A DNA stretch of 33,551 bases from Occallatibacter sp. (lineage in GTDB: Bacteria; Acidobacteriota; Terriglobia; Terriglobales; Acidobacteriaceae): NCBI GenBank assembly GCA_017883405.1, contig JADGNO010000089.1, positions 1-33,551 on the forward strand, read 5' to 3'. The notes beneath the pieces were generated by a model that was not told the origin of the DNA, ran no database searches, and saw only the letters and a program-made list of their open reading frames with translations. Of the stretch, positions 13,251-24,475 are shown piece by piece. The first letter of the stretch is position 1. Every line of letters begins with the position of its first letter. Both the position numbers and the translations under genes were made by a program.

Positions 13251-13291
13251 ATTTTAGTTTTTTGAGGGAGCACTGAGGCGTTTTGAAGCGT

Positions 13292-15313
13292 ATGAGTCTA
13301 GAGGAAGTTAAGACGCAAACTGGGGCGCCCAGATTTGGCCGTATCGACGCGGATCTGGCGGATGTTGATTCTGCTACAGTCCGTGCGCGGGACTTTCTAT
13401 TCTCATTGCAGCATCCTGACGGCTACTGGTCAGGTGAACTCGAAGCGGATTCGATGCTCGAGGCCGATTATATTTTTTTGCACACACTGCTCGAGAGCGG
13501 CGATCCGGGCAGGCTGAAACGCGCATTCACCGAGATGATGCGCTACCAAAACGAGGACGGAAGCTGGAGTCTTTATCCGGGCGGTCCCGGTAATGTTTCT
13601 CTTTCGGTCAAGTGCTACTCTGCCGGAAAGATCATGGGGCTTACCGCGGGCGATCCGCGCCTGGTTAAGTGCCGTGAATGGGTTCTAGCCAACGGCGGCG
13701 TGGTTGCGTGCAATACCTTCACCAAGATGTATTTGTGCGCGCTGGGCCAGTATGACTACGATGCTGTACCGGCCATTCCTCCGGAGATTGTTTTATTTCC
13801 GAACTGGTTCTACTTCAACATCTACGAAATTTCTTCGTGGTCGCGCTCGATTCTTGTGCCGCTGGCAATTATTTACGCCAAGAAGCCGTACAAGAAGCTT
13901 CCACCGGATCAGGGAATCGACGAACTTTTTGTAGGCGGCCGCGCAAACGCTGTATTGCGGCTGCGCCGTGATCGCAAGCGGCTCTTTTCGTGGCGAAACT
14001 TTTTCATCGCGCTCGACAGGTTGGCGCACTGGGCTGAGGCAGTACATCTACGGCCAGTGCGGAAAATTGCGATGCGCAAAGCAGAGAAGTGGCTGCTGGA
14101 GCGGCTCGAACTGACCGATGGTCTGGGCGCAATTTATCCGGCCATGCTGAATGCGATCATTGCGCTGCGGTGCCTTGGCTACTCCGAAGATGATCCGCAG
14201 GTGATTCGTGCGCGCGATGAGTTTGAAAAGCTCGGTATTGAAGAGCCGGCGAGTGAAGTGATGCCGGAGCCAACCTTCCGCATGCAGCCTTGCATGTCGC
14301 CGGTATGGGATACGGCGCAGGCTATCTACGCGCTGGGTGAAGCGGGTGCATCGCGTACCGATCCGCGCATGATCAAGGCGGCAGATTGGCTGCTGTCGAA
14401 GGAAGTGCGTCACAAAGGCGACTGGGCGGTGAAGGTTCCCAACACCGAACCGGGCGGCTGGTACTTTGAATTCAACAACGAATTTTATCCCGATACGGAC
14501 GACACCGCGCAGGTTCTGATGGCGCTGAACAAGGTGGACAATCCCCGCGAGCGCTATCAACACCAGGTGTGCCAGCGCGCAATCGACTGGGAGTTCGCCA
14601 TGCAGTGCCGCAACGGTGGCTGGGGCAGCTTCGACAAAGACAACACGAAGATGATTTTCCAGTACATTCCGTTTGCAGATCACAACGCCATGCTTGATCC
14701 GCCCACGGTGGATATAACCGGGCGCATGCTTGAGATGCTGGCCGCGTACGGCTATACGCGCGACGACAAGCGGGTTGAAAAGGCAATCAAATTTATTTTT
14801 CAGGAACAGGAACCCGACGGAAGCTGGTTTGGCCGATGGGGTGTGAATTATCTCTATGGCACGTTCTTGGTATTGCGCGGGCTTGAGGCCATTGGCATCG
14901 ATCATCTGGAGCCGCAGATTCAGCAAGCGGCCGAGTGGATCCGCATGGTGCAGAATTCCGATGGTGGCTGGGGCGAGTCTTGCGGAACCTACGACGACCC
15001 GAACACACGTGGGATCGGCGTGAGTACGCCCTCGCAAACTGCGTGGGCCATGCTTGGATTGCTGGCCGCCGGCGATGACCGTTCGGACTCAATCGCCAAA
15101 GGCGTGCGCTGGCTGCTTGATCGCCAACGGCCCGATGGCAGTTGGGATGAGTCGATGGGTGAAGGCGCGACGCGTCAGAGCATTATCACCGGGACGGGCT
15201 TCCCCAAGGTGTTTTACCTGGCCTACACGATGTATCGACAGTACTTTCCGCTGATGGCGCTCACTGGCTATCGACGGGCAATGGAGCGCGCCGCTAACGG
15301 CGTTGGAGGTTAA
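13292..15313 (+). CDS. shc: Squalene-hopene cyclase
   Basis: This protein of about 673 residues cyclises squalene to hopene/hopanol at the inner membrane. The catalytic DxDD motif is intact ('FYPDTDDTAQVL', near residues 401-404). Several QW repeats that brace the alpha-barrel are visible: 'QHPDGYWSGELEAD', 'QNEDGSWSLY', 'QCRNGGWGSFDKDN', 'QEPDGSWFGRWGVNY', 'QNSDGGWGESCGTYDD' and 'QRPDGSWDESMGEG'. The start is uncertain: ATG 13292 is 13 nt after a GAGG, while an in-frame TTG at 13283 is 4 nt after it and would add three residues. Length is normal for bacterial SHC rather than for sporulene or terpene cyclases. Its stop overlaps the ribosome binding site of hpnH, so the two are translationally linked. 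Confidence 0.96.
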   Translation: MSLEEVKTQTGAPRFGRIDADLADVDSATVRARDFLFSLQHPDGYWSGELEADSMLEADYIFLHTLLESGDPGRLKRAFTEMMRYQNEDGSWSLYPGGPGNVSLSVKCYSAGKIMGLTAGDPRLVKCREWVLANGGVVACNTFTKMYLCALGQYDYDAVPAIPPEIVLFPNWFYFNIYEISSWSRSILVPLAIIYAKKPYKKLPPDQGIDELFVGGRANAVLRLRRDRKRLFSWRNFFIALDRLAHWAEAVHLRPVRKIAMRKAEKWLLERLELTDGLGAIYPAMLNAIIALRCLGYSEDDPQVIRARDEFEKLGIEEPASEVMPEPTFRMQPCMSPVWDTAQAIYALGEAGASRTDPRMIKAADWLLSKEVRHKGDWAVKVPNTEPGGWYFEFNNEFYPDTDDTAQVLMALNKVDNPRERYQHQVCQRAIDWEFAMQCRNGGWGSFDKDNTKMIFQYIPFADHNAMLDPPTVDITGRMLEMLAAYGYTRDDKRVEKAIKFIFQEQEPDGSWFGRWGVNYLYGTFLVLRGLEAIGIDHLEPQIQQAAEWIRMVQNSDGGWGESCGTYDDPNTRGIGVSTPSQTAWAMLGLLAAGDDRSDSIAKGVRWLLDRQRPDGSWDESMGEGATRQSIITGTGFPKVFYLAYTMYRQYFPLMALTGYRRAMERAANGVGG

Positions 15314-15320
15314 CCCCAGG

Positions 15321-16439
15321 ATGGCAATTCCTATTTCTCAGATGTGGACGGTGTCGACTTACGTGCTGAAGAAGCAACTCTCAGGCGTCAAGCGATACCC
15401 GCTTGTGCTGATGCTTGAGCCGCTCTTTCGCTGCAACCTTGCGTGCGCCGGCTGCGGCAAAGTACAGTACCCTCCGCATATTCTGAAGAAGCAGTTAACC
15501 CCCGAAGAATGCTTCAAGGCCGTGGATGAGTGCGGTGCGCCGATGGTATCAATCCCCGGCGGCGAACCATTGCTCCATCCGCAGATTGTTGAGATCGTCA
15601 ACGGGCTCATTGCGCGCAAAAAGTACATTTATCTCTGCACCAATGCGCTGGAGCTCAAGCGCAGGCTGCCGGAGTTTACGCCGTCGAAGTACCTCACCTT
15701 CTCAGTGCACCTTGATGGCGAGCGCGATCACCACGACTACTCCGTTTGCCGCGAAGGTGGATGGGACATCGCTGTCGAAGGCATCAAGGAAGCGGTGAAG
15801 CGTGGCTTCCGCGTGACGACTAACGCCACCTTCTTTGACGGCACCGATCCGAACAGCGTCCGCCGCTTCTTTGACGAAGTAATGGGGATGGGCGTTGAAG
15901 GCATCGTGCTTTCGCCGGGATATAGCTACGAGAAGGCCCCCGACCAGACCCACTTCATGGGCCGCGCCCGCGTGCGCAAGTTGTTCCGTGCAATCCTGTC
16001 GAACCGGAAGCCTACCTGGAAATTCAATATGTCGCCGCTGTTTCTTGAGTTCCTGATGGGCGACCGTAACTACGATTGCATTCCGTGGGGTATGCCGGCT
16101 TACAACATTTTTGGCTGGCAAAAGCCCTGCTACCTGCTGCAGGACGGCTACACGGAAACCTACAAGGAACTGCTCGAAACTACAAACTGGGATGAATACG
16201 GCGTTCCCAGCGGAAACCCCAAATGCGCCAACTGCATGGTGAGCTGCGGATATGAAGCTCCGGCAGTGATGGATGGGTTTGGCACTTTGAAGGGATTTCT
16301 TGCCATGATTCGCGGCACATTCTCGAGCTATCCTGACCAGCACGCGCTGAATCTGTTGAACGAGCCTGCGCCGCACGGCCCGGCGTCACTGGTGCAGATC
16401 GAGAAGACCGATCGCGCACTTGAGGAGACACGCGCATGA
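15321..16439 (+). CDS. hpnH: Adenosylhopane synthase, radical SAM protein HpnH
   Basis: This 372-residue radical SAM enzyme joins the 5'-deoxyadenosyl group of SAM to hopene (diploptene) to give adenosylhopane, the first step of C35 hopanoid side-chain building. The cluster-binding CxxxCxxC is 'CNLACAGC' (Cys38, Cys42, Cys45). The 'SIPGGEPLLHP' motif follows, and the typical N-terminus 'MAIPISQMWTVSTYVLKKQL' is present. A C-terminal cysteine region ('GNPKCANCMVSCGYEAP') agrees with the HpnH subfamily. I chose ATG 15321 because GGAGG (15305-15309), inside the end of shc, lies 11 nt before it; a TTG at 15303 overlaps shc and precedes that site. The stop overlaps the next start as ATGA. Confidence 0.96.
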   Translation: MAIPISQMWTVSTYVLKKQLSGVKRYPLVLMLEPLFRCNLACAGCGKVQYPPHILKKQLTPEECFKAVDECGAPMVSIPGGEPLLHPQIVEIVNGLIARKKYIYLCTNALELKRRLPEFTPSKYLTFSVHLDGERDHHDYSVCREGGWDIAVEGIKEAVKRGFRVTTNATFFDGTDPNSVRRFFDEVMGMGVEGIVLSPGYSYEKAPDQTHFMGRARVRKLFRAILSNRKPTWKFNMSPLFLEFLMGDRNYDCIPWGMPAYNIFGWQKPCYLLQDGYTETYKELLETTNWDEYGVPSGNPKCANCMVSCGYEAPAVMDGFGTLKGFLAMIRGTFSSYPDQHALNLLNEPAPHGPASLVQIEKTDRALEETRA

Positions 16440-16989: not shown

Positions 16990-18000
16990 ATGAAAGTCTT
17001 TCTTACAGGCGCAACCGGTTTTGTCGGTCATCACGTGGCCAAGGCATTAGCTGCCGAGGGTGCTGAGCTTCGCCTGCTTACGCGCAAGAGCAGCAATCTG
17101 TCTAATCTCGAAGGCATTAAGGGAGACTCGCATGTGGGCGATCTGGGTCAGCCAGAATCGCTCAGGCCCGCGCTTGAAGATTGCGATGCGGTGGTTCATG
17201 TGGCGGCTGATTACCGGCTTTGGATTCCCGATCCTGCGGGCATGTATCGCGCCAATGTTGAAGGCACACGCGAGCTGCTGCGCATGGCGCGCGAGGCTGG
17301 AGTGCCGCGTTTTGTGTATACGTCGAGCGTGGCCACCATGCACTTCCGCACCGACGGCATTGTGATCAATGAGGACACGCCGGTTTCAATTGCCGACATG
17401 GTGGGGCACTACAAGCGCTCGAAATTCATGGCGGAGCAGGTGGCAATTGAGGCAGCGCAGGCCGGCCAGCAGGTGATCATTCTGAATCCGACCACGCCTA
17501 TTGGACCGAACGACCGCAAGCCGACACCGACGGGCCGCATCTTCGTTGATTTCTTGAATGGCAAATTTCCGGCCTATGTCGATACCGGCCTGAACCTGGT
17601 TGACGTTTCTGAAGTAGCGCGCACGCATGTACAGGCGCTTGTAAAGGGCGCGCCGGGCCGCCGTTACATTCTTGGCGGAGAAAACCTGACGCTGAAGCAG
17701 ATTCTGGACAAGATGTCGGCCATCACGGGAATTCCATCGCCGACTGTCAAGATTCCGTTTGCCGTGGCAGCGACCTATGCGTTCTTCGAAGAGTGGATTA
17801 CCGGACGCATCCGGGGCAAAGAACCGCGCGCCACGCTTGAAGAAGTGCGTATGGGGCGGAAGAAGATGTTCGCTTCAAGCGCGCGCGCCGAACAGGAACT
17901 TGGCTTCCGCATTATGCCCGTCTATCCTGCCATGCGCACGTCGATTGAGTGGTTTCGCGCCAATGGTTACGCGCCCGCAGAACCGCGCGCAAAAGCATGA
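16990..18000 (+). CDS. hpnA: Hopanoid-associated sugar epimerase/dehydrogenase HpnA
   Basis: This 336-residue NAD(P)-dependent extended short-chain dehydrogenase has the Rossmann motif GATGFVG at residues 7-13 and the catalytic Tyr141-x-x-x-Lys145 ('HYKRSK'). A typical HpnA N-terminus ('MKVFLTGATGFVGHHVAKAL') and the 'ILNPTTPIGPNDRKPTPTG' segment are visible. HpnA proteins are found in many hopanoid loci, but the exact reaction is not established; a role in modifying the sugar-derived side chain is usually assumed. There is no clear Shine-Dalgarno before the ATG. The stop overlaps the next start as ATGA (17997-18000), so it heads a seven-gene operon that ends with hpnE. Confidence 0.93.
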   Translation: MKVFLTGATGFVGHHVAKALAAEGAELRLLTRKSSNLSNLEGIKGDSHVGDLGQPESLRPALEDCDAVVHVAADYRLWIPDPAGMYRANVEGTRELLRMAREAGVPRFVYTSSVATMHFRTDGIVINEDTPVSIADMVGHYKRSKFMAEQVAIEAAQAGQQVIILNPTTPIGPNDRKPTPTGRIFVDFLNGKFPAYVDTGLNLVDVSEVARTHVQALVKGAPGRRYILGGENLTLKQILDKMSAITGIPSPTVKIPFAVAATYAFFEEWITGRIRGKEPRATLEEVRMGRKKMFASSARAEQELGFRIMPVYPAMRTSIEWFRANGYAPAEPRAKA

Positions 18001-18722
18001 CCCGCATCGCCATCATTGCCGCGTTGCCCGGTGAACTGAAGCCGCTGGTGCGCGGTTGGCAGCATGAGCGCCATCTTAGCGTTGACGTCTGGCAGACACG
18101 GCACAACAATGTAGAGTGCTTTGCGGCCTGCCGCGGAATGGGGACGGCCGCCGCTATACAGGCATTTTCCGTATTGGAGAAGAAGGGCAAACTCGACATG
18201 GTCATCTCCGCCGGCTGGGCGGGCGCGTTGCATGCTGACTTTGAAGCAGGGAAGGCTTATCGCGTGGCCGGAGTTACTGACCTTCGAACCGGCGAGCGCT
18301 ACGTTGCGGCGGACGCAACGGACAACGATCCCTGGCTGGTGACAAGCCCCCGCGTCGCCGACTCTGCGGAGAAGCGCCGCCTGGCTGCCGAGTACGGCGC
18401 TGGGCTGGTGGATATGGAAGCCGCCGCCATTGCGCGACTGGCGGCCATGCGCGGCATTCCCTTTGAATGCGTCAAGGGCGTCAGCGATGGTTTCGGCGAA
18501 AATCTCCCTGATTTCAATCGCTTTATCTCAAGGCAGGGGCAGCTTAGGCTGTCCCGGTTGCTGCTTTTTGTACTTCCGCGGCCCTGGTGCTGGCCTGCGC
18601 TCATCCGGATGGGCGAGAATAGTAAGAAGGCTTCCCAAAACCTTGCGGGACTCCTGCTCGAAAATATAGAAATCCCTGGAGATCAATCGAATCAGAATGG
18701 CGACTCAAACCTCTCGCGCTGA
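17997..18722 (+). CDS. hpnG: Adenosylhopane nucleosidase/phosphorylase HpnG
   Basis: This 241-residue protein belongs to the nucleoside phosphorylase/MTA-SAH nucleosidase superfamily. In hopanoid loci HpnG removes adenine from adenosylhopane and leads to ribosylhopane. The start 'MTRIAIIAALPGELKPLV' matches the superfamily. The ribose-binding Met140-Glu141 ('LVDMEAAAIARL') and the purine-site Asp164 ('KGVSDGFGENLPDF') are present, as is the glycine motif 'VISAGWAGAL'. The ATG at 17997 overlaps the hpnA stop; a GTG at 17949 lies deeper in hpnA and is unlikely. The C-terminal 50 residues ('LLLFVLPRPWCWPALIRMG') are hydrophobic and basic, as could suit a protein handling a membrane lipid. It overlaps the next gene by 26 bp. 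Confidence 0.88.
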   Translation: MTRIAIIAALPGELKPLVRGWQHERHLSVDVWQTRHNNVECFAACRGMGTAAAIQAFSVLEKKGKLDMVISAGWAGALHADFEAGKAYRVAGVTDLRTGERYVAADATDNDPWLVTSPRVADSAEKRRLAAEYGAGLVDMEAAAIARLAAMRGIPFECVKGVSDGFGENLPDFNRFISRQGQLRLSRLLLFVLPRPWCWPALIRMGENSKKASQNLAGLLLENIEIPGDQSNQNGDSNLSR

Positions 18723-19827
18723 AAGACGCATCGAGCCTAAAGTTCCTTCAACTATGCGCGCCGTTGTTTATCGCGGCATTAACGACATGCGCGTGGAAAC
18801 TGTTCCCGTGCCCGAGATCGGCCCCGGTGAGCTGCTGATTAAGGTTGCGACGTGCGGCATCTGCGGTACGGACTTGAAAAAGATCCACATGGGGTCGCAC
18901 TCCGCGCCTCGCATCTTTGGCCATGAGATGGCCGGAACTATTGTGAAGGTAGGCGACGGCGCTCAAGGCTACGAACTGGGCTACCGCGTAATGACTTTTC
19001 ACCATGTTCCGTGCGGCAACTGCTATTACTGCCGTAAGCAGATTCCCACCCAGTGCCCTCTCTATTTACAGACCGGTGTGACGGCTGGGTTTGCGCCGTC
19101 GGGCGGCGGGTTTGCGGAGTACATCCGCGTGATGGATTTTGTAGTGAAGAATCGTGGCGTGGTGCGCATTCCTGACGATGTTCCGTTTGAGCAGGCCGCA
19201 TTTATTGAGCCGCTGAATACCGTTTTGAAGGGCGTGAAGCTGCTGAACCTTGCGCCGGACGACACGGTTCTGGTCATCGGCCAAGGGCCCATCGGATTAA
19301 TGCATGCCGCGCTGGCAAAGCGTACCGGCGCGCGCGTGCTTACTTCCGACCTGTTCCCGGAGCGTCACGCGATTGCGGCGCGATTTGGGCTGACGGACCC
19401 GATCTTTGCGGCCACCGAAAATGTAGTGGAGCGGGTGAAGGCGGAAACCGAGGGCCGGGGTGCCGATGCGGTGATTTTGGCGGTTGGCGGCAATGCGCTC
19501 ATCAAGACAGCTATTGATGCGGCGCGGTACGGCGGAAAAGTAATGTTGTTTGCGCAGACGCAGCACGGCGAGGCCACCTTCGATCCGGCGGCGGTTTGTG
19601 TAGACGAAAAGACGTTGCTGGGGTCATACTCATCTTCGTTCGAAATTCTGGATGAAGTGACTGATATTGTTTTGAATGGATACCGAAAAGGTTTTGATCT
19701 AACTCAACTGATTTCGCACCGCTTTCCGATTGAGCAAGCGGTCGAGGCCATCGACATAGCATCCCACCCTCAACCAGGTTCGATGAAGATTATGATTGAG
19801 CCTGAATCAGGAGCGGGGGCAGAGTAG
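18697..19827 (+). CDS. Zinc-dependent medium-chain alcohol dehydrogenase 1
   Basis: This 376-residue medium-chain dehydrogenase resembles sorbitol, threonine and idonate dehydrogenases. Catalytic zinc ligands are Cys53 (in 'CGICGTD'), His76 and Glu77 ('GHEMAG'). The structural zinc loop is complete: Cys106, Cys109, Cys112 and Cys120. The Rossmann turn reads 'VIGQGPIGLMHAALAKRTG'. The N-terminus may be shorter: ATG 18754 begins the usual 'MRAVVYRG', and the 19 residues before it are polar and not family-like. I keep 18697 because it overlaps hpnG within the operon, with a distant GGAG. It lies between hpnG and a second dehydrogenase. Reduction of ribosylhopane to a bacteriohopanepolyol is an attractive but unproven role. 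Confidence 0.88.
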   Translation: MATQTSRAERRIEPKVPSTMRAVVYRGINDMRVETVPVPEIGPGELLIKVATCGICGTDLKKIHMGSHSAPRIFGHEMAGTIVKVGDGAQGYELGYRVMTFHHVPCGNCYYCRKQIPTQCPLYLQTGVTAGFAPSGGGFAEYIRVMDFVVKNRGVVRIPDDVPFEQAAFIEPLNTVLKGVKLLNLAPDDTVLVIGQGPIGLMHAALAKRTGARVLTSDLFPERHAIAARFGLTDPIFAATENVVERVKAETEGRGADAVILAVGGNALIKTAIDAARYGGKVMLFAQTQHGEATFDPAAVCVDEKTLLGSYSSSFEILDEVTDIVLNGYRKGFDLTQLISHRFPIEQAVEAIDIASHPQPGSMKIMIEPESGAGAE

Positions 19828-19837
19828 GAGGGTCTTG

Positions 19838-20035
19838 ATGGCGGGTACCGTGAAAGACGCGCTCCTCCGGGGCCGCAAGACGATGGAGGTTGTCGTCGAA
19901 GGAGGCTTGAACACAGTTGAGACTGTGGTTGAAGCCGGCCTGAATACCGTCGATATTGTGGTCGATAAGGGCCGCCAGACGGTCGAATCCGCTGTAAGCC
20001 TGGGACGCAGGACAGTTGAGCATACGCTTCTGCAG
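19838..20035 (+). repeat. Six tandem 33-bp units encoding 11-residue amphipathic repeats
   Basis: Each 33-bp unit encodes the pattern G-[RL]-x-T-[VM]-[ED]-x-x-[VL]-x-x. Units two to six begin GRKTMEVVVEG, GLNTVETVVEA, GLNTVDIVVDK, GRQTVESAVSL and GRRTVEHTLLQ. The first, MAGTVKDALLR, also fits. Thr is at position 4 in all six units and Val/Met at position 5. The DNA units have diverged, so the pattern is held at protein level rather than being a recent DNA duplication. Confidence 0.9.
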
Positions 20036-21082
20036 GGAGGACACAGCACCATGCGTGCCGCAGTCCTCCACGGTCGTGAAGATATACGAATTGAGCAGGT
20101 TCCTGTACCTGAAGCAGGGCCGGGAGAGATCATCGTTCAGGTGGGCGCGGCGCTCACTTGTGGGACCGATTTGAAAGTCTTTCGCCGCGGTTATCACGCA
20201 CGCATGATTGTGCCTCCGGCGCTGTTTGGCCACGAACTTGCCGGAACGGTGGTTCAGGCGGGCGAGGGTGTTACTGATTTCGCATCGGGCGATCGCGTTG
20301 TGGCGCTTAATTCCGCTCCCTGCGGGGAATGTTACTTCTGCAGCCGCGGGCAGGAAAACCTGTGCGACGATCTGCTCTTCAACAACGGCGCCTATGCAGA
20401 GTTCATCCGCATCCCAGCCCGCATCGTCGCAAAGAATACTCTGAAGATTCCAGATCATGTGGCGTTGGAACATGCGGCGCTGACTGAGCCGCTTGCGTGC
20501 GCTGTCCATGGCTTTGAAGATTCGCGCCCTCGCAAAGGCGATACTGTCGCGGTGATCGGCGGGGGGCCACTGGGTTTGATGATTCTGCATGTGGCCGCGC
20601 TTGCGGGCTACGAAGTAATTGCGATTGTGAAGCACGACGGCCAGATGGAAGCGGCGCGGCAACTGGGCGCTGCTCATGTTGTGCAAACGGCCAGCATTCG
20701 CAAAGCGATCCGCGATACGCGCGCGCTGACACCGAAGGATCGCGGCGTGGATATCGCGATTGAGGCGGTTGGCGTGCCCGAGGCTTGGCAGGAAGCGGTG
20801 GAACTTGTGCGTAAGGGCGGTACCGTCAACTTCTTCGGAGGTTGCGCCGCGAACACGCACGTAACGCTCGACACCAACCGCATTCACTATAGCGACATTA
20901 CGCTGCGGGCTACGTTCCATCACACGCCTGCAATTTGCCGCAAGGCGCTTGACCTGATTGCCGGCGGCCGATTCCAGGCAGGAGCATTCATTACCGGCCG
21001 CGCTCACCTCTACGAACTCAACCGCGTCTTTGAGAAGCTGATGAACCGCGGCAGCGAGATCAAGACCGCCATTGTGCCATGA
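19838..21082 (+). CDS. Zinc-dependent alcohol dehydrogenase 2 with N-terminal 11-residue-repeat helix
   Basis: This 414-residue protein has two parts. Residues 1-66 are six tandem 11-residue repeats predicted to form one long amphipathic helix. From Met72 on it is a normal medium-chain dehydrogenase. The catalytic zinc site has Cys108 ('TCGTDLK'), His132 and Glu133 ('GHELAG'). The structural zinc loop has Cys162, Cys165, Cys168 and Cys176, and the Rossmann turn is 'VIGGGPLGLMILHVAAL'. ATG 19838 follows GGAGGG by 5 nt and is a strong start; the track-like upstream TTG at 19796 overlaps adh1. A second GGGAGG (20035-20040) lies 10 nt before ATG 20051 (Met72), so a short form without the repeats is possible. 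It sits in the hpn operon directly before hpnC. The helix could dock the enzyme on the membrane that holds its lipid substrate (inference). Confidence 0.9.
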   Translation: MAGTVKDALLRGRKTMEVVVEGGLNTVETVVEAGLNTVDIVVDKGRQTVESAVSLGRRTVEHTLLQGGHSTMRAAVLHGREDIRIEQVPVPEAGPGEIIVQVGAALTCGTDLKVFRRGYHARMIVPPALFGHELAGTVVQAGEGVTDFASGDRVVALNSAPCGECYFCSRGQENLCDDLLFNNGAYAEFIRIPARIVAKNTLKIPDHVALEHAALTEPLACAVHGFEDSRPRKGDTVAVIGGGPLGLMILHVAALAGYEVIAIVKHDGQMEAARQLGAAHVVQTASIRKAIRDTRALTPKDRGVDIAIEAVGVPEAWQEAVELVRKGGTVNFFGGCAANTHVTLDTNRIHYSDITLRATFHHTPAICRKALDLIAGGRFQAGAFITGRAHLYELNRVFEKLMNRGSEIKTAIVP

Positions 21083-21091
21083 GGTGAATGA

Positions 21092-22090
21092 GTGACTGCG
21101 GCCACGGAAAATAATGCGCTGGAGAGAGAAGCCGCGCCCGCGCGGAATGCTGACGAACTGATTGCTCGCGGCTGGGCCGCGCTGCCGGTTTCGTATCGCT
21201 TTCCCGACATGGCTCCAACGCTGGATGAAGCGCGAGCATGGTGCAGGCACCTGGCAGAAACGCATTACGAAAATTTCCACGTCGCCACATGGTTTCTACC
21301 GGAAATGCTGCGGCCGCATTTCCACTCGATTTATGCGTACTGCCGCGTTTCCGACGATCTGGGCGATGAGGTTGGTTCGAAAGAATCCGCGCTGGCGCTG
21401 CTCGATTTGTGGGGCCGTGAGTTGGACGCGTGCTACGAAGGGCGGAATCGGCATCCCGTATTTGTGGCTCTGGCTGAATCCATTCGAGTCTGCGGGATTC
21501 CAAAGGAACCGTTTGCGGATTTGTTAACGGCGTTTCGTCAGGACCAGACAGTGACCCGCTACGCCAACATGCATGAAGTGCTTGGGTATTGCCGCTACTC
21601 GGCTAACCCGGTGGGGCGGCTTGTACTTTACGCGTGCGGAGAAGCAAGCGAAGAGAAGTTCAAGCTTTCAGACGCAACGTGTTCGGCGTTGCAACTGGCG
21701 AATTTCTGGCAGGATGTCCGCGTGGACTGGGGCAAAGATCGCGTATATCTACCGCAGGACGAGATGCGGCAGTTCGGCGTGAGCGATGCAACGATTGCGG
21801 CGGGCGTTGCAACGAAAGAATTTCAAGCATTGATGCGCCACGAGGTTAACTATGCGCGTTCGCTGTTTGCGGAGGGTTTGCCGCTAATCGGTATGGTCAG
21901 CCGCGACCTGGCGATCGATCTCGATTTGTTCAGCCGCGGCGGCCTTGAGATTTTGCGCGCCATTGAGCGGTGCAACTACGACGTGCTTGGCGCGCGTCCG
22001 GCGATCTCAAAAAGCAGCAAACTCGCCCTTGGTTTTCGCGCGCTTTGCGCAAAGATGTTTCCATTTCTCCGCCTCGGCACGGGCTTTTGA
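21092..22090 (+). CDS. hpnC: Squalene synthase subunit HpnC (hydroxysqualene synthase)
   Basis: This 332-residue member of the squalene/phytoene synthase family converts presqualene diphosphate to hydroxysqualene in the HpnCDE route to squalene. The first Asp-rich motif is 'YCRVSDDLGDE' (Asp88, Asp89, Asp92) and the second is in 'FWQDVRVDWGKDRVYLP'. The segment 'ENFHVATWFLPEMLRPHF' is typical of HpnC and separates it from HpnD. GAGGTG lies 5 nt before the GTG start at 21092, 9 bp after the dehydrogenase. The first 30 residues are polar and variable. Gene order hpnC-hpnD-hpnE is the standard one. Confidence 0.94.
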   Translation: MTAATENNALEREAAPARNADELIARGWAALPVSYRFPDMAPTLDEARAWCRHLAETHYENFHVATWFLPEMLRPHFHSIYAYCRVSDDLGDEVGSKESALALLDLWGRELDACYEGRNRHPVFVALAESIRVCGIPKEPFADLLTAFRQDQTVTRYANMHEVLGYCRYSANPVGRLVLYACGEASEEKFKLSDATCSALQLANFWQDVRVDWGKDRVYLPQDEMRQFGVSDATIAAGVATKEFQALMRHEVNYARSLFAEGLPLIGMVSRDLAIDLDLFSRGGLEILRAIERCNYDVLGARPAISKSSKLALGFRALCAKMFPFLRLGTGF

Positions 22091-22101
22091 GAGAAGGCGG
22101 C

Positions 22102-23028
22102 TTGACGCAAGAACTCCCATCGAACGGACCCACTCTCAGCCACTCCTACGCAGTGTGCCGCGAGATCGCCAGGCGTGAAGCCAAGAACTTCTACTACGCT
22201 TTTATTGCGCTGCCTCCGGCGCGCCGCAATGCCATCTGCGCCATCTATGCCTTCATGCGCAAGGCTGACGATCTTTCCGACGACGAAAGCATTTCGCGCC
22301 AGGAACGGCGCAACCGGTTGAATGTCTGGATCAGCGACTGGCGTTCAGCAATTCAGGGAGCGCCGACCAGCGATCTCGTGTTCATTGCCGTGCGTGATGC
22401 AACTGCGCGGTTCGCCATTCCGCTAAGTCTTCTCGATGAACTGGTGGCGGGCGTCACCATGGATCTGGATCGTACGGAGAGCGGCGAGCCCGATACGTAC
22501 GCCACCTTTGCCGATCTTTATGGTTACTGCTACCTGGTGGCTTCGGTTGTGGGCCTGGTTTGCATACGGATCTTCGGATATACGGATATGCGCGCGGAAA
22601 AGCTAGCGGAAGAGACAGGAATTGCTTTCCAGTTAACCAACATTCTGCGCGATGTGGCTGAGGATGCGGAGCGCAATCGAGTCTATTTGCCAATTGAGGA
22701 CCTGAAGAAGCACGATGTGGCTCTGCAGTCGCTGCTTCATCGCGCTCAGGGCAAGCCGCCCTCGGAAAATGAACGCGCGCTGCTGAAAGAGATTGCCGAG
22801 CGCGCCGAGAAGTTTTACCGCTCGGCTGAACAATTGATGCCGTATATCGATGCGGAAAGCAGGCCGGCATTGCGCGTCCTCGTAGACATTTATCATGCGC
22901 TGCTCAAGCGAATTGAGGCTGCGGACTACGACGTATTTTCGCATCGCGCGTCGGTGCCGCTGTGGCAAAAGCTGCGGATATTGATGATTGGCCTCGCCCG
23001 CATGACGCTGGCGCGGCTATTTGCGTAA
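22102..23028 (+). CDS. hpnD: Presqualene diphosphate synthase HpnD
   Basis: This 308-residue squalene/phytoene synthase homologue condenses two farnesyl diphosphates to presqualene diphosphate. It shows 'KNFYYAFIALPPARRNAICA', the Asp-rich 'RKADDLSDDES' (Asp56-Asp61) and the second motif 'NILRDVAEDAERNRVYLP'. The frame is open upstream to 21970 inside hpnC. I chose TTG 22102 because AGAAGG ends 4 nt before it and the sequence after it matches the family; no ATG or GTG is better placed. The start is therefore only moderately certain. It lies 11 bp after hpnC and 7 bp before the likely hpnE start. Confidence 0.93.
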   Translation: MTQELPSNGPTLSHSYAVCREIARREAKNFYYAFIALPPARRNAICAIYAFMRKADDLSDDESISRQERRNRLNVWISDWRSAIQGAPTSDLVFIAVRDATARFAIPLSLLDELVAGVTMDLDRTESGEPDTYATFADLYGYCYLVASVVGLVCIRIFGYTDMRAEKLAEETGIAFQLTNILRDVAEDAERNRVYLPIEDLKKHDVALQSLLHRAQGKPPSENERALLKEIAERAEKFYRSAEQLMPYIDAESRPALRVLVDIYHALLKRIEAADYDVFSHRASVPLWQKLRILMIGLARMTLARLFA

Positions 23029-23035
23029 TGCAGGC

Positions 23036-24475
23036 ATGGGAGAACGCTTGAGCGAATCGCTCGACAACTCGAGGTCTGTTACCGTGATTGGCGGCGGCGT
23101 GGCCGGCATGAGCGCTGCCTGCGCGCTTGCCGAGGCGGGCCTGCGGGTGGCGCTTGTCGAGCGGCGCGGCTATCTCGGCGGGCGCGCGAGCTCGTATCTG
23201 CATCCCGGCGTGAACGAAGTCATCGACAACTGCCAGCATGTTCTCTTCGGCTGCTGCACCAATCTGGTCGGGTTCTATCGACGGGTCGGCGTTGCTGATC
23301 GCATCCACTGGACAAGCGATATGACGATGATTGAGCCGGGCGGACGGCGTTCGCATCTGGGCCCGTCGAAGTTCGCCGGAATCGAATTGCCCGCGCCTTT
23401 GCACGGCTTGCCCAAGCTTCTTTCAGCGCATGCTTTTTCGCTTGCCGACAAAATTGCACTGGCACGGGCGTTTTCAGCGTTGATGCGGCCAGTGCCGGCG
23501 TATTCGCGCGAGTCGCTCGATGCATGGCTACGACGGCATGGGCAGACGCGCGGCGCAATGGAACGCTTCTGGCGACTTGTGATTGCCAGCGCACTGAACG
23601 CAGATCTCGAAGCGATCTCGCTGCCGTATGCCGCAAAGGTGATTCGCGAGCTGTTCATGAATTCGACCTTCGCAGGAAGCATGGGCATGAGCCCGGTTCC
23701 GCTCAGCGAATTGTATGTGGGCGTTGCGCCGTTCATTGAAGGGCGCGGCGGCTGTGTTCACCTGAATACATTTCTTGAGGGTGCAGAGTGGGACGAAGCA
23801 GCCGGGCAATGGCGCATCCGCACACGCGCCGGAGAGCTTGTATCAGATTTTCTGGTTTTCGCGTTGCCATTTGAAGCTACAGAGCAACTGCTCCCGCAAA
23901 TGCCCGCGGTAGAAGGGAAGCCCGAACTCGAGCGCAAGATCGAGCATCACGAACACTGGCCCATCTGCAGTGTGCATCTCTGGTTCGATCGCGAGATTAC
24001 CGAACTGGAACACGCCCTGCTCCTCGATCGCGAAATTCACTGGATGTATAACCAGTCGCGCCTGCAGCATCGCGGCGGGCACTATGTCGAACTGGTCGTG
24101 TCGGCTACGCGGGCCTTTGCGGCACTTTCAAGAGAAGACGCCATCCGTCAGGCACTCGCGGAGCTTGCAGAGTTTTTTCCGGCGGTCGCATCGGCAAAGC
24201 TGGAGAAGGTGGCGCTGGTAAAGGAAGTGCGTGCGACGTTTGGCGTTCCACCCGGAATCGACGAGTGGCGGCCCCACGCAGTTTCGCCTTGGCCCAACTG
24301 CTTCCTCGCCGGCGATTGGGTTGCAACTGGTTGGCCCTCGACGATGGAAAGCGCAGCACGATCGGGACATCTAGCAGCAGAGGCGCTGTGCCACAGCCTC
24401 GGAAAACAGCGTGCATTTTTAGAGCCTGACCTGAAACCGGAAGGGCTGATGACGTTCTTACCTATTAGCTCCTAG
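23036..24475 (+). CDS. hpnE: Hydroxysqualene dehydroxylase HpnE (FAD-dependent)
   Basis: This 479-residue flavoprotein of the amine-oxidase/phytoene-desaturase superfamily reduces hydroxysqualene to squalene. The FAD-binding GGGVAG is at residues 19-24, followed by 'VALVERRGYLGGRASSY'. The C-terminal FAD motif is 'CFLAGDWVATGWPSTMESAARSG'-like, with 'AGDW' and 'ESAARSG' clearly visible. ATG 23036 is chosen over an in-frame TTG at 23021 that overlaps hpnD; neither has a strong ribosome binding site. The last few codons (LPISS and stop) lie inside the left arm of a heptamer repeat, so the C-terminal tail may have been altered by that element. It ends the hpnA operon. Confidence 0.94.
   Translation: MGERLSESLDNSRSVTVIGGGVAGMSAACALAEAGLRVALVERRGYLGGRASSYLHPGVNEVIDNCQHVLFGCCTNLVGFYRRVGVADRIHWTSDMTMIEPGGRRSHLGPSKFAGIELPAPLHGLPKLLSAHAFSLADKIALARAFSALMRPVPAYSRESLDAWLRRHGQTRGAMERFWRLVIASALNADLEAISLPYAAKVIRELFMNSTFAGSMGMSPVPLSELYVGVAPFIEGRGGCVHLNTFLEGAEWDEAAGQWRIRTRAGELVSDFLVFALPFEATEQLLPQMPAVEGKPELERKIEHHEHWPICSVHLWFDREITELEHALLLDREIHWMYNQSRLQHRGGHYVELVVSATRAFAALSREDAIRQALAELAEFFPAVASAKLEKVALVKEVRATFGVPPGIDEWRPHAVSPWPNCFLAGDWVATGWPSTMESAARSGHLAAEALCHSLGKQRAFLEPDLKPEGLMTFLPISS

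Follow-up and report, generated by a model that had tools for sequence, protein, structure and literature searches.

A zinc-dependent dehydrogenase gene in the hopanoid cluster of the window (the whole 33,551-nucleotide stretch analysed, from Occallatibacter sp.) opens with six 11-residue units, which make up residues 1-66 of the 19838-21082 product when it is read from the upstream ATG. We read this array as an optional helical extension at the N-terminus of an MDR dehydrogenase from hopanoid clusters, a reading that as a whole is the best explanation of the data at a probability of roughly one half. The 11-residue array is real and unusual, while its host, the ug2 gene, was already known. 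What is new is the likely origin of the array within the gene itself, its all-or-none length, and its cassette-like exchange. An earlier, sequence-only reading of this DNA missed both the origin and the exchange.

The catalytic part is a typical member of its family. The product carries both MDR zinc-dependent dehydrogenase domains above their curated cut-offs, with PF08240 (ADH_N) at 89.2 bits against 23.5 and PF00107 (ADH_zinc_N) at 82.2 bits against 31.8. Residues C108, H132, E133, C162, C165, C168 and C176 are invariant in 40 aligned sequences, and we take them to be the Cys, His and Glu of the catalytic zinc and the four Cys of the structural zinc. The best sequence match of the catalytic part is 4ej6/4ejm, a putative zinc dehydrogenase of Sinorhizobium meliloti (E 1.5e-44), and 4ejm is also the first fold match, at 32% identity over 355-357 columns of 414. 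Neither match gives any sign of the array, the sequence query being the core alone.

Squalene-hopene cyclase, hpnH, hpnA, hpnG, hpnC, hpnD and hpnE surround the gene, and hpnJ lies in the same cluster on the opposite strand, so its placement in a hopanoid operon by the sequence-only reading was right. Its position directly before hpnC, as in the portion of PMC5462960 (Front Microbiol 2017) consulted, identifies it as ug2, described there as a Zn-binding alcohol dehydrogenase of ~350 residues and unknown function that often precedes hpnC. Position and family are the same, and the reported length fits the catalytic part. That portion of PMC5462960 makes no mention of a repeat or an N-terminal extension in ug2, and one of the genomes it treats, Terracidiphilus gabretensis S55, supplies an array-less locus of our set (L102). 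The features are collected in Table 1.

Table 1. Features of the array-bearing dehydrogenase gene and the genes around it (positions in the window).
Feature	Position	Strand	Remark
Squalene-hopene cyclase and hpnH	13283..16439	+	
hpnA and hpnG	16990..18722	+	HpnG below curated cut-off
Second MDR zinc dehydrogenase, paralogue without array, 'ug1' by its place after hpnG	18697..19827	+	
Shine-Dalgarno AGGAGG, 6 nt before first ATG	19826..19831	+	sequence
MDR zinc dehydrogenase, 'ug2' gene of acidobacterial hopanoid clusters, 414 aa	19838..21082	+	PF08240, PF00107
Array unit 1	19838..19870	+	resembles N-terminus of array-less orthologues (MATTMKAAILHGR)
Array unit 2, GRKTMEVVVEG	19871..19903	+	
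Array unit 3, GLNTVETVVEA	19904..19936	+	
Array unit 4, GLNTVDIVVDK	19937..19969	+	
Array unit 5, GRQTVESAVSL	19970..20002	+	
Array unit 6, GRRTVEHTLLQ	20003..20035	+	
Linker GGHST, five residues	20036..20050	+	then core Met72 at 20051
TMRAAVLHGRE, residues 71-81, beta-strand 1 and turn of catalytic domain, presumed source of the unit	20048..20080	+	strand 71-79 (model)
First 30 core codons, whose tree tracks array presence most closely (all sites, third codon positions)	20051..20140	+	
hpnC, hpnD (below its cut-off), hpnE	21092..24475	+	

Six 11-residue units behind the start codon, with the core beginning at Met72, had been proposed from the sequence, and the open reading frame, its phase and its coordinates are correct (ATG at 19838, units over 19838-20035). 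Thr at position 4, Val or Met at 5 and a charged residue at 6 do recur in all six units (position 6 being K, E, E, D, E, E). At lag 11, 24 of 59 positions are identical over residues 1-70, a value reached by 0 of 20,000 shuffles at that lag. Tandem Repeats Finder returns 0 rows for the array on the window DNA because the DNA units are too diverged; the orthologue L055, which has another unit type, displays a clear DNA tandem period of 33. Across 104 distinct internal units from 39 genes, Gly at position 1 is kept in 89% (pseudocounts included), Val at position 5 in 92% and Glu at position 6 in 84%. Off-register indels in the family fall, by eye, nearly all in the linker, and the window gene itself has one extra residue at the joint between array and core.

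Translation starting only at Met72 was rejected. Shine-Dalgarno-like matches of at least 5 nt favour the first ATG, which they precede in 24 of 40 array genes; one such match precedes the core ATG in just 1 of the 40, the window gene itself. In this sole case a GGAGG match lies 10 nt before the core Met, within 20036-20050, so an additional internal start at the core Met of the window gene is possible.

For the window protein, AlphaFold2 (40 sequences) predicts a single low-confidence helix (residues 5-66, pLDDT 51-59); the catalytic domain behind it is for the most part confidently modelled, and its first strand comprises residues 71-79. In the seven-unit orthologue L055 the predicted helix covers residues 5-78; pLDDT is 76-81 for residues 11-60 and falls to 56-68 towards either end. 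Structure prediction, suggested earlier as a check, therefore returns a continuous helix over the array in both proteins. Of 40 arrays, 34 have their hydrophobic-moment maximum at 97-100 degrees; in the remaining 6 it falls at 163-164 degrees, which is a strand-like harmonic. The apolar strip is formed by positions 8, 1, 5 and 9, and Leu at position 2 widens it in about a quarter of distinct units. The apolar face assigned by the sequence-only reading is thus the right one (8-1-5-9, with 2 adjacent), but Gly 1 sits in the middle of it. Net charge is -1 in the window array, with a median of +1. A HeliQuest-type score exceeds 0.68 for the best 18-mer in 40 of 40 arrays; this is a best-of-many value driven by charge and was given no weight.

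The six arrays with strand-like periodicity would suit a short beta-solenoid in place of a helix. Units that probably come from a strand and turn point the same way, as do 4 of 25 arrays that weakly match the YdcK beta-solenoid repeat model (best E 0.0067). We nevertheless regard such a fold as highly improbable, since the AlphaFold2 models show an unbroken helix in either unit type and are fairly confident for the one that most favoured strand.

How widespread is the array? In the protein collection, the array is present in all of the best 120 listed relatives, though a few are truncated at the start. The array segment has matches at E <= 0.001 in 31 of 398 family genomes. Of these 31, 30 belong to the window's genus (window genome included); the sole match outside the genus is one weak hit in another open reading frame (E 7.9e-4), and at least 20 genomes of the genus do not match. 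A 91-residue query finds matches at E <= 0.01 in 33 of 297 phylum genomes; only in the window's genome is the match full length, and matches elsewhere are weak (E 8.9e-6 to 0.008). Six phylum genomes (L027, L035, L038, L040, L041 and L043) reach the array part at 32-43% identity (E 6.5e-4 to 0.0067); on reading, these are unrelated stretches with no 11-residue array. The other phylum matches begin at query residue 43 or later and cover the core start. With array-bearing matches confined mostly to the window's genus, the array as a general feature of hopanoid dehydrogenases was rejected.

We then compared 77 distinct genes whose start could be read: 40 have the array and 37 do not (26 close orthologues and 11 outgroups). 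The set comprises the loci of a six-pattern search, three loci from an array-segment search and the window, with identical proteins counted once; L001-L043 are unused, and L115-L117, L119, L120 and L122, in which the script motif was unmatched, are left out. The array is absent from 26 of 66 close orthologues, a proportion that is not an unbiased frequency because L133, L135 and L150 were found by the array search and one of the six search patterns lies in the array. The 26 array-less cores are 82-91% identical, and hpn gene order is the same in every close locus listed, with or without the array, as far as the flanks reach. Hence, the array is not needed for the enzyme as such. Orthologues lacking the repeat and otherwise unchanged, which the sequence-only reading had set against itself, are largely what is found, but the adjoining ~30 codons differ too. 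Where orthologues carry the array, unit number varies and the 11-residue phase is kept, as that reading had proposed to check.

Two members of these collections stand apart. L044 (JARLJU010000370.1), binned as the gammaproteobacterium Rudaea, bears an array gene that is 91% identical and flanked by the same hpn genes, and it is probably a misbinned acidobacterial contig. P0127 (362 aa), a listed array relative, joins the array and ADH_N to a PF03699 domain and is perhaps a chimeric assembly.

Comparison of the units with the gene's own core makes it very probable that the array grew through tandem duplication, in frame, of the initial 33 bp of the gene, that is, the start codon and beta-strand 1. 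The first line of evidence is a length rule. The distance from start Met to core Met is 4 residues in 24 of the 26 close genes that lack the array and 5 residues in L083 and L095 (the start Met of L095 being the script's choice). In array genes the same distance is 70, 81 or 92 residues (4+11n, with n=6, 7 or 8) in 33 of 40; the other 7 deviate by 1-4 residues, and the deviation sits in the linker except in L150, where it is in the first unit. Distances of 70, 81 or 92 recur in 231 of 266 counted clusters of the protein collection (11 of 277 proteins left out), and the rest are 69, 71, 73, 79, 80, 84 or 91. No array of one to five units was seen in the 66 close loci or in the protein collection, whose lists favour query-like lengths.

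The second line of evidence is the likeness of the units to the start of the core, for which, as in the unit-profile, dN/dS and unit-table analyses, L150 was left out. The first unit (e.g. MAPTMKAAILHGRK in L050 and L113) is nearly identical to the N-terminus of array-less orthologues (MATTMKAAILHGRE). When the first unit is compared with ~321 in-frame windows of the core, the core start ranks first by protein in 29 of 39 genes and by DNA in 28, and DNA identity reaches 91% in L113. By protein the core start does not rank first in the remaining 10 genes; nine of these have GRATVE-type units, and in several genes of that type (e.g. L068 and L071) internal units, not the first, match the core start best. 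Of 181 internal units in all, 84 have the core start as top match by protein (median rank 1) and 48 by DNA (median rank 6). In L055 (five internal units) and in L068 and L071 (four each), every internal unit matches it best by both measures. In the window gene the core start is the best match for 1 of 4 internal units by protein and 0 of 4 by DNA, so the duplication signal is diffuse in the window's unit type. A profile of the internal units ranks the expected N-terminal window of close array-less genes 1st-6th of ~337 in 25 of 26 genes and 20th in the other; in the six outgroups having an N-terminal window it ranks 43rd-77th, and scores are overall mostly negative. No signal came from a comparison of unit 2 with the second 11-mer of the core. 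In-frame copying of the gene's own first 33 bp would turn a strand-coding segment into a helical repeat, because 33 bp encode three helical turns.

Acquisition of the array from another protein, spliced before the enzyme, would explain why internal units of the GLNTVE type bear only a weak resemblance to the core start. The 4+11n rule and the likeness of the first unit to the core start argue against it. So do the best 120 of 416 matches to the window array and the best 120 of 271 to the L055 array, all of which carry an alcohol dehydrogenase N-terminal domain (candidates in both searches being proteins of 0.55-1.75x query length), and the 398 family genomes, with the single out-of-genus match given above. 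A foreign source is therefore very unlikely.

Self-duplication would explain how the array formed; its patchy presence may have a further cause. From the gene trees, and with less certainty than for the origin, we suggest that the distribution stems largely from exchange of the gene's 5' end among species, and not only from repeated gain and loss. The 5' end, comprising the array and ~30 core codons, would pass among species as a cassette. On a tree of the catalytic domain (L063 and L109 left out as short) array state changes 9 times, and supported branches force 1 of these changes. On a tree of five operon genes it changes 14 times, with 12 changes forced by well-supported branches; this tree of 69 rows was made by a quick method with SH-aLRT only, and genomes with fewer than 4 of the five genes were left out. 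A single gain followed only by independent losses was rejected, given the 14 changes on the five-gene tree and a linkage to codons 1-30 that it leaves unexplained, though the core tree by itself is compatible with it.

This linkage emerged from trees of short segments along the alignment (55 genes, those of other core length left out). Array state changes 8 times on the tree of core codons 1-30 and 7 times with third positions only. Codons 16-45 give 9 changes, and 15 at third positions. Segments from codon 31 on give 13-19 changes against ~18 for shuffled labels, and those in the last 390 nt of the preceding gene give 11-19; a second set of such trees yielded similar counts. With all sites, two upstream segments (11 and 12 changes) and codons 121-150 (13 changes) likewise have fewer changes than any shuffle. 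Ordinary kinship would produce as much, so the linkage peaks at codons 1-30 without being exclusive to them. Low counts of 5-7 changes at the ends of the downstream alignment were taken for artefacts and not used, because that alignment is gap-stretched from ~890 to >1,700 columns. Since the linkage holds at third positions, it points to exchange of a 5' block rather than selection on core residues alone.

The core residues next to the array differ in charge as well. Residues 1-20 are less basic in array genes (mean -0.70 vs +0.52), and in ten pairs with and without the array their charge is lower in 6, higher in 1 and equal in 3; the shift was noticed after a column scan, and the tests ignore relatedness. 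It is not peculiar to the N-terminus, as residues 221-345 are also less basic in array genes (1.33 vs 2.28). A scan of the ten pairs for per-residue changes tied to the array yielded no significant column, with 160 of 342 label swaps reaching the observed maximum.

The units are under constraint. Inter-unit dN/dS, computed in 7 of 39 genes, is 0.10-0.29 in 6 of them and undefined in L055 through synonymous saturation (pS 0.77, pN 0.11). In the genes tested, synonymous change between units is several-fold greater than amino-acid change. Gly 1, Val 5 and Glu 6 are kept although all four Gly codons, all four Val codons and both Glu codons are used. Between orthologues, array pN/pS is 0.33-0.40 against 0.13-0.15 in the core (two groups, 105 pairs each). 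That relaxation relative to the core, together with the 26 close orthologues that lack the array, would fit a nearly neutral repeat expansion, tolerated because the N-terminus is free. We find this improbable in view of the low inter-unit dN/dS, the G, V and E kept with varied codons, the confinement of off-register indels nearly always to the linker, and the 66 close loci without any 1-5-unit array.

What does the helix do? Slightly less assured than the helix reading as a whole is a docking role, which the residue pattern suggests. The Val/Gly/Leu strip of a 60-75-residue helix would rest on the cytoplasmic membrane, and the docked dehydrogenase would stay close to a hopanoid-pathway lipid, either substrate or product. 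One candidate for its reaction is the reduction of ribosylhopane to bacteriohopanetetrol, for which the enzyme is still unassigned in the portions of PMC12583986 and PMC5462960 consulted. By gene neighbourhood alone, the ug2-type dehydrogenase is a candidate ribosylhopane reductase, and the array would fit a reductase that docks on the membrane to act on the head group of a lipid. Several observations weigh against docking: the hydrophobic strip is narrow with Gly in its middle, net charge is about zero, 26 of the 66 close orthologues manage without the array, six arrays peak at the strand-like angle, and the window helix is modelled at low pLDDT. Val 5 is also kept more strictly than a lipid-facing site seems to need. 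Because the array is optional, docking, if real, would tune rather than enable the enzyme.

The strict keeping of Val 5 and Gly 1 makes coiled-coil association a serious rival and the main one, though less likely than docking. The array would then be a hendecad coiled coil, in which two to four dehydrogenase chains, or the dehydrogenase and a partner enzyme, associate through their helices into a larger assembly or metabolon. V5, V/A8, V/L/I9 and G1 fall at core positions a, d, e and h, and the 11-residue phase is exact over 6-8 units. Moreover, the best solved-structure matches of the array profile include designed helical proteins (4uos, E 0.003; 7rdr, E 2.6e-10, the latter weak, since its score adds up eight nearly identical repeats that contribute no more than 7 bits apiece). 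Against packing, Leu at position 2 of central units lies outside a-d-e-h. Positions a, d and e are apolar but h is Gly, which is unusual in a coiled-coil core; the structure models are of single chains. Docking joined to the origin and the exchange gives a fuller and more tentative picture, in which a self-duplicated strand has become a synuclein-like docking helix of 6-8 units, carried on a mobile 5' cassette that would switch a hopanoid enzyme between soluble and membrane-docked forms.

Alpha-synuclein and the exchangeable apolipoproteins combine an 11-residue (three-turn) period with an amphipathic helix and a Val-rich nonpolar strip. The array is like them in all three respects. It is unlike them in sitting on an enzyme, in having Gly in the strip, in its near-neutral charge and in having no convincing sequence match. 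Searched against Pfam at E <= 10, with filters that drop most matches above E 0.1, the window segment has one hit listed, the unrelated PCC_BT (E 0.042); the synuclein family PF01387 and the exchangeable apolipoprotein family are not listed. Among 25 arrays, PF01387 is touched by 1 (E 0.0021), and plainly unrelated families match as well or better (e.g. HHH_5, 8 of 25, E 0.00047). Exchangeable apolipoprotein is not among the best 25 of the 54 weakly matching families. The models for the amphipathic repeats of perilipin (PF03036) and phasin are each weakly touched by 5 of the 25 arrays (best E 0.032 and 0.031), which is noise level, with unrelated families higher in the same scan. The likeness to synuclein and apolipoproteins drawn by the sequence-only reading is one of period and amphipathic pattern. 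The array does not count as a synuclein and is apparently bacterial and of separate origin.

Among the open-licence papers listed, titles and abstract openings contained no report of such a repeat on a hopanoid dehydrogenase. The array offers a traceable case for the rise of an 11-residue amphipathic helix, with presumed source, copies and array-less relatives in one bacterial group. If the proposed origin holds, the same coding sequence is a strand in one place and a helix in another. Because close relatives carry the enzyme without the array, its role is open to study through natural forms, for example Occallatibacter savannae AB23 (L074) with the array and Terracidiphilus gabretensis S55 without it. 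The array also draws attention to a dehydrogenase that may fill the ribosylhopane step.

Other genes of the locus have features of their own. The paralogue at 18697-19827 has an N-terminal extension of ~19 residues with no repeat. The hpnG product (17994-18722) scores 91.6 bits against the HpnG curated cut-off of 187.1 and so looks like a diverged member, and the hpnD product (21970-23028) is below its cut-off as well (242.3 against 278.6). HpnA (16990-18000) also matches SdmB, a sterol demethylase protein, at 205.5 bits, short of the 600-bit cut-off. An antisense open frame of 496 codons (19790-21280, minus strand) overlaps the array gene and is probably a shadow frame, since the synonymous pattern fits the plus-strand gene.
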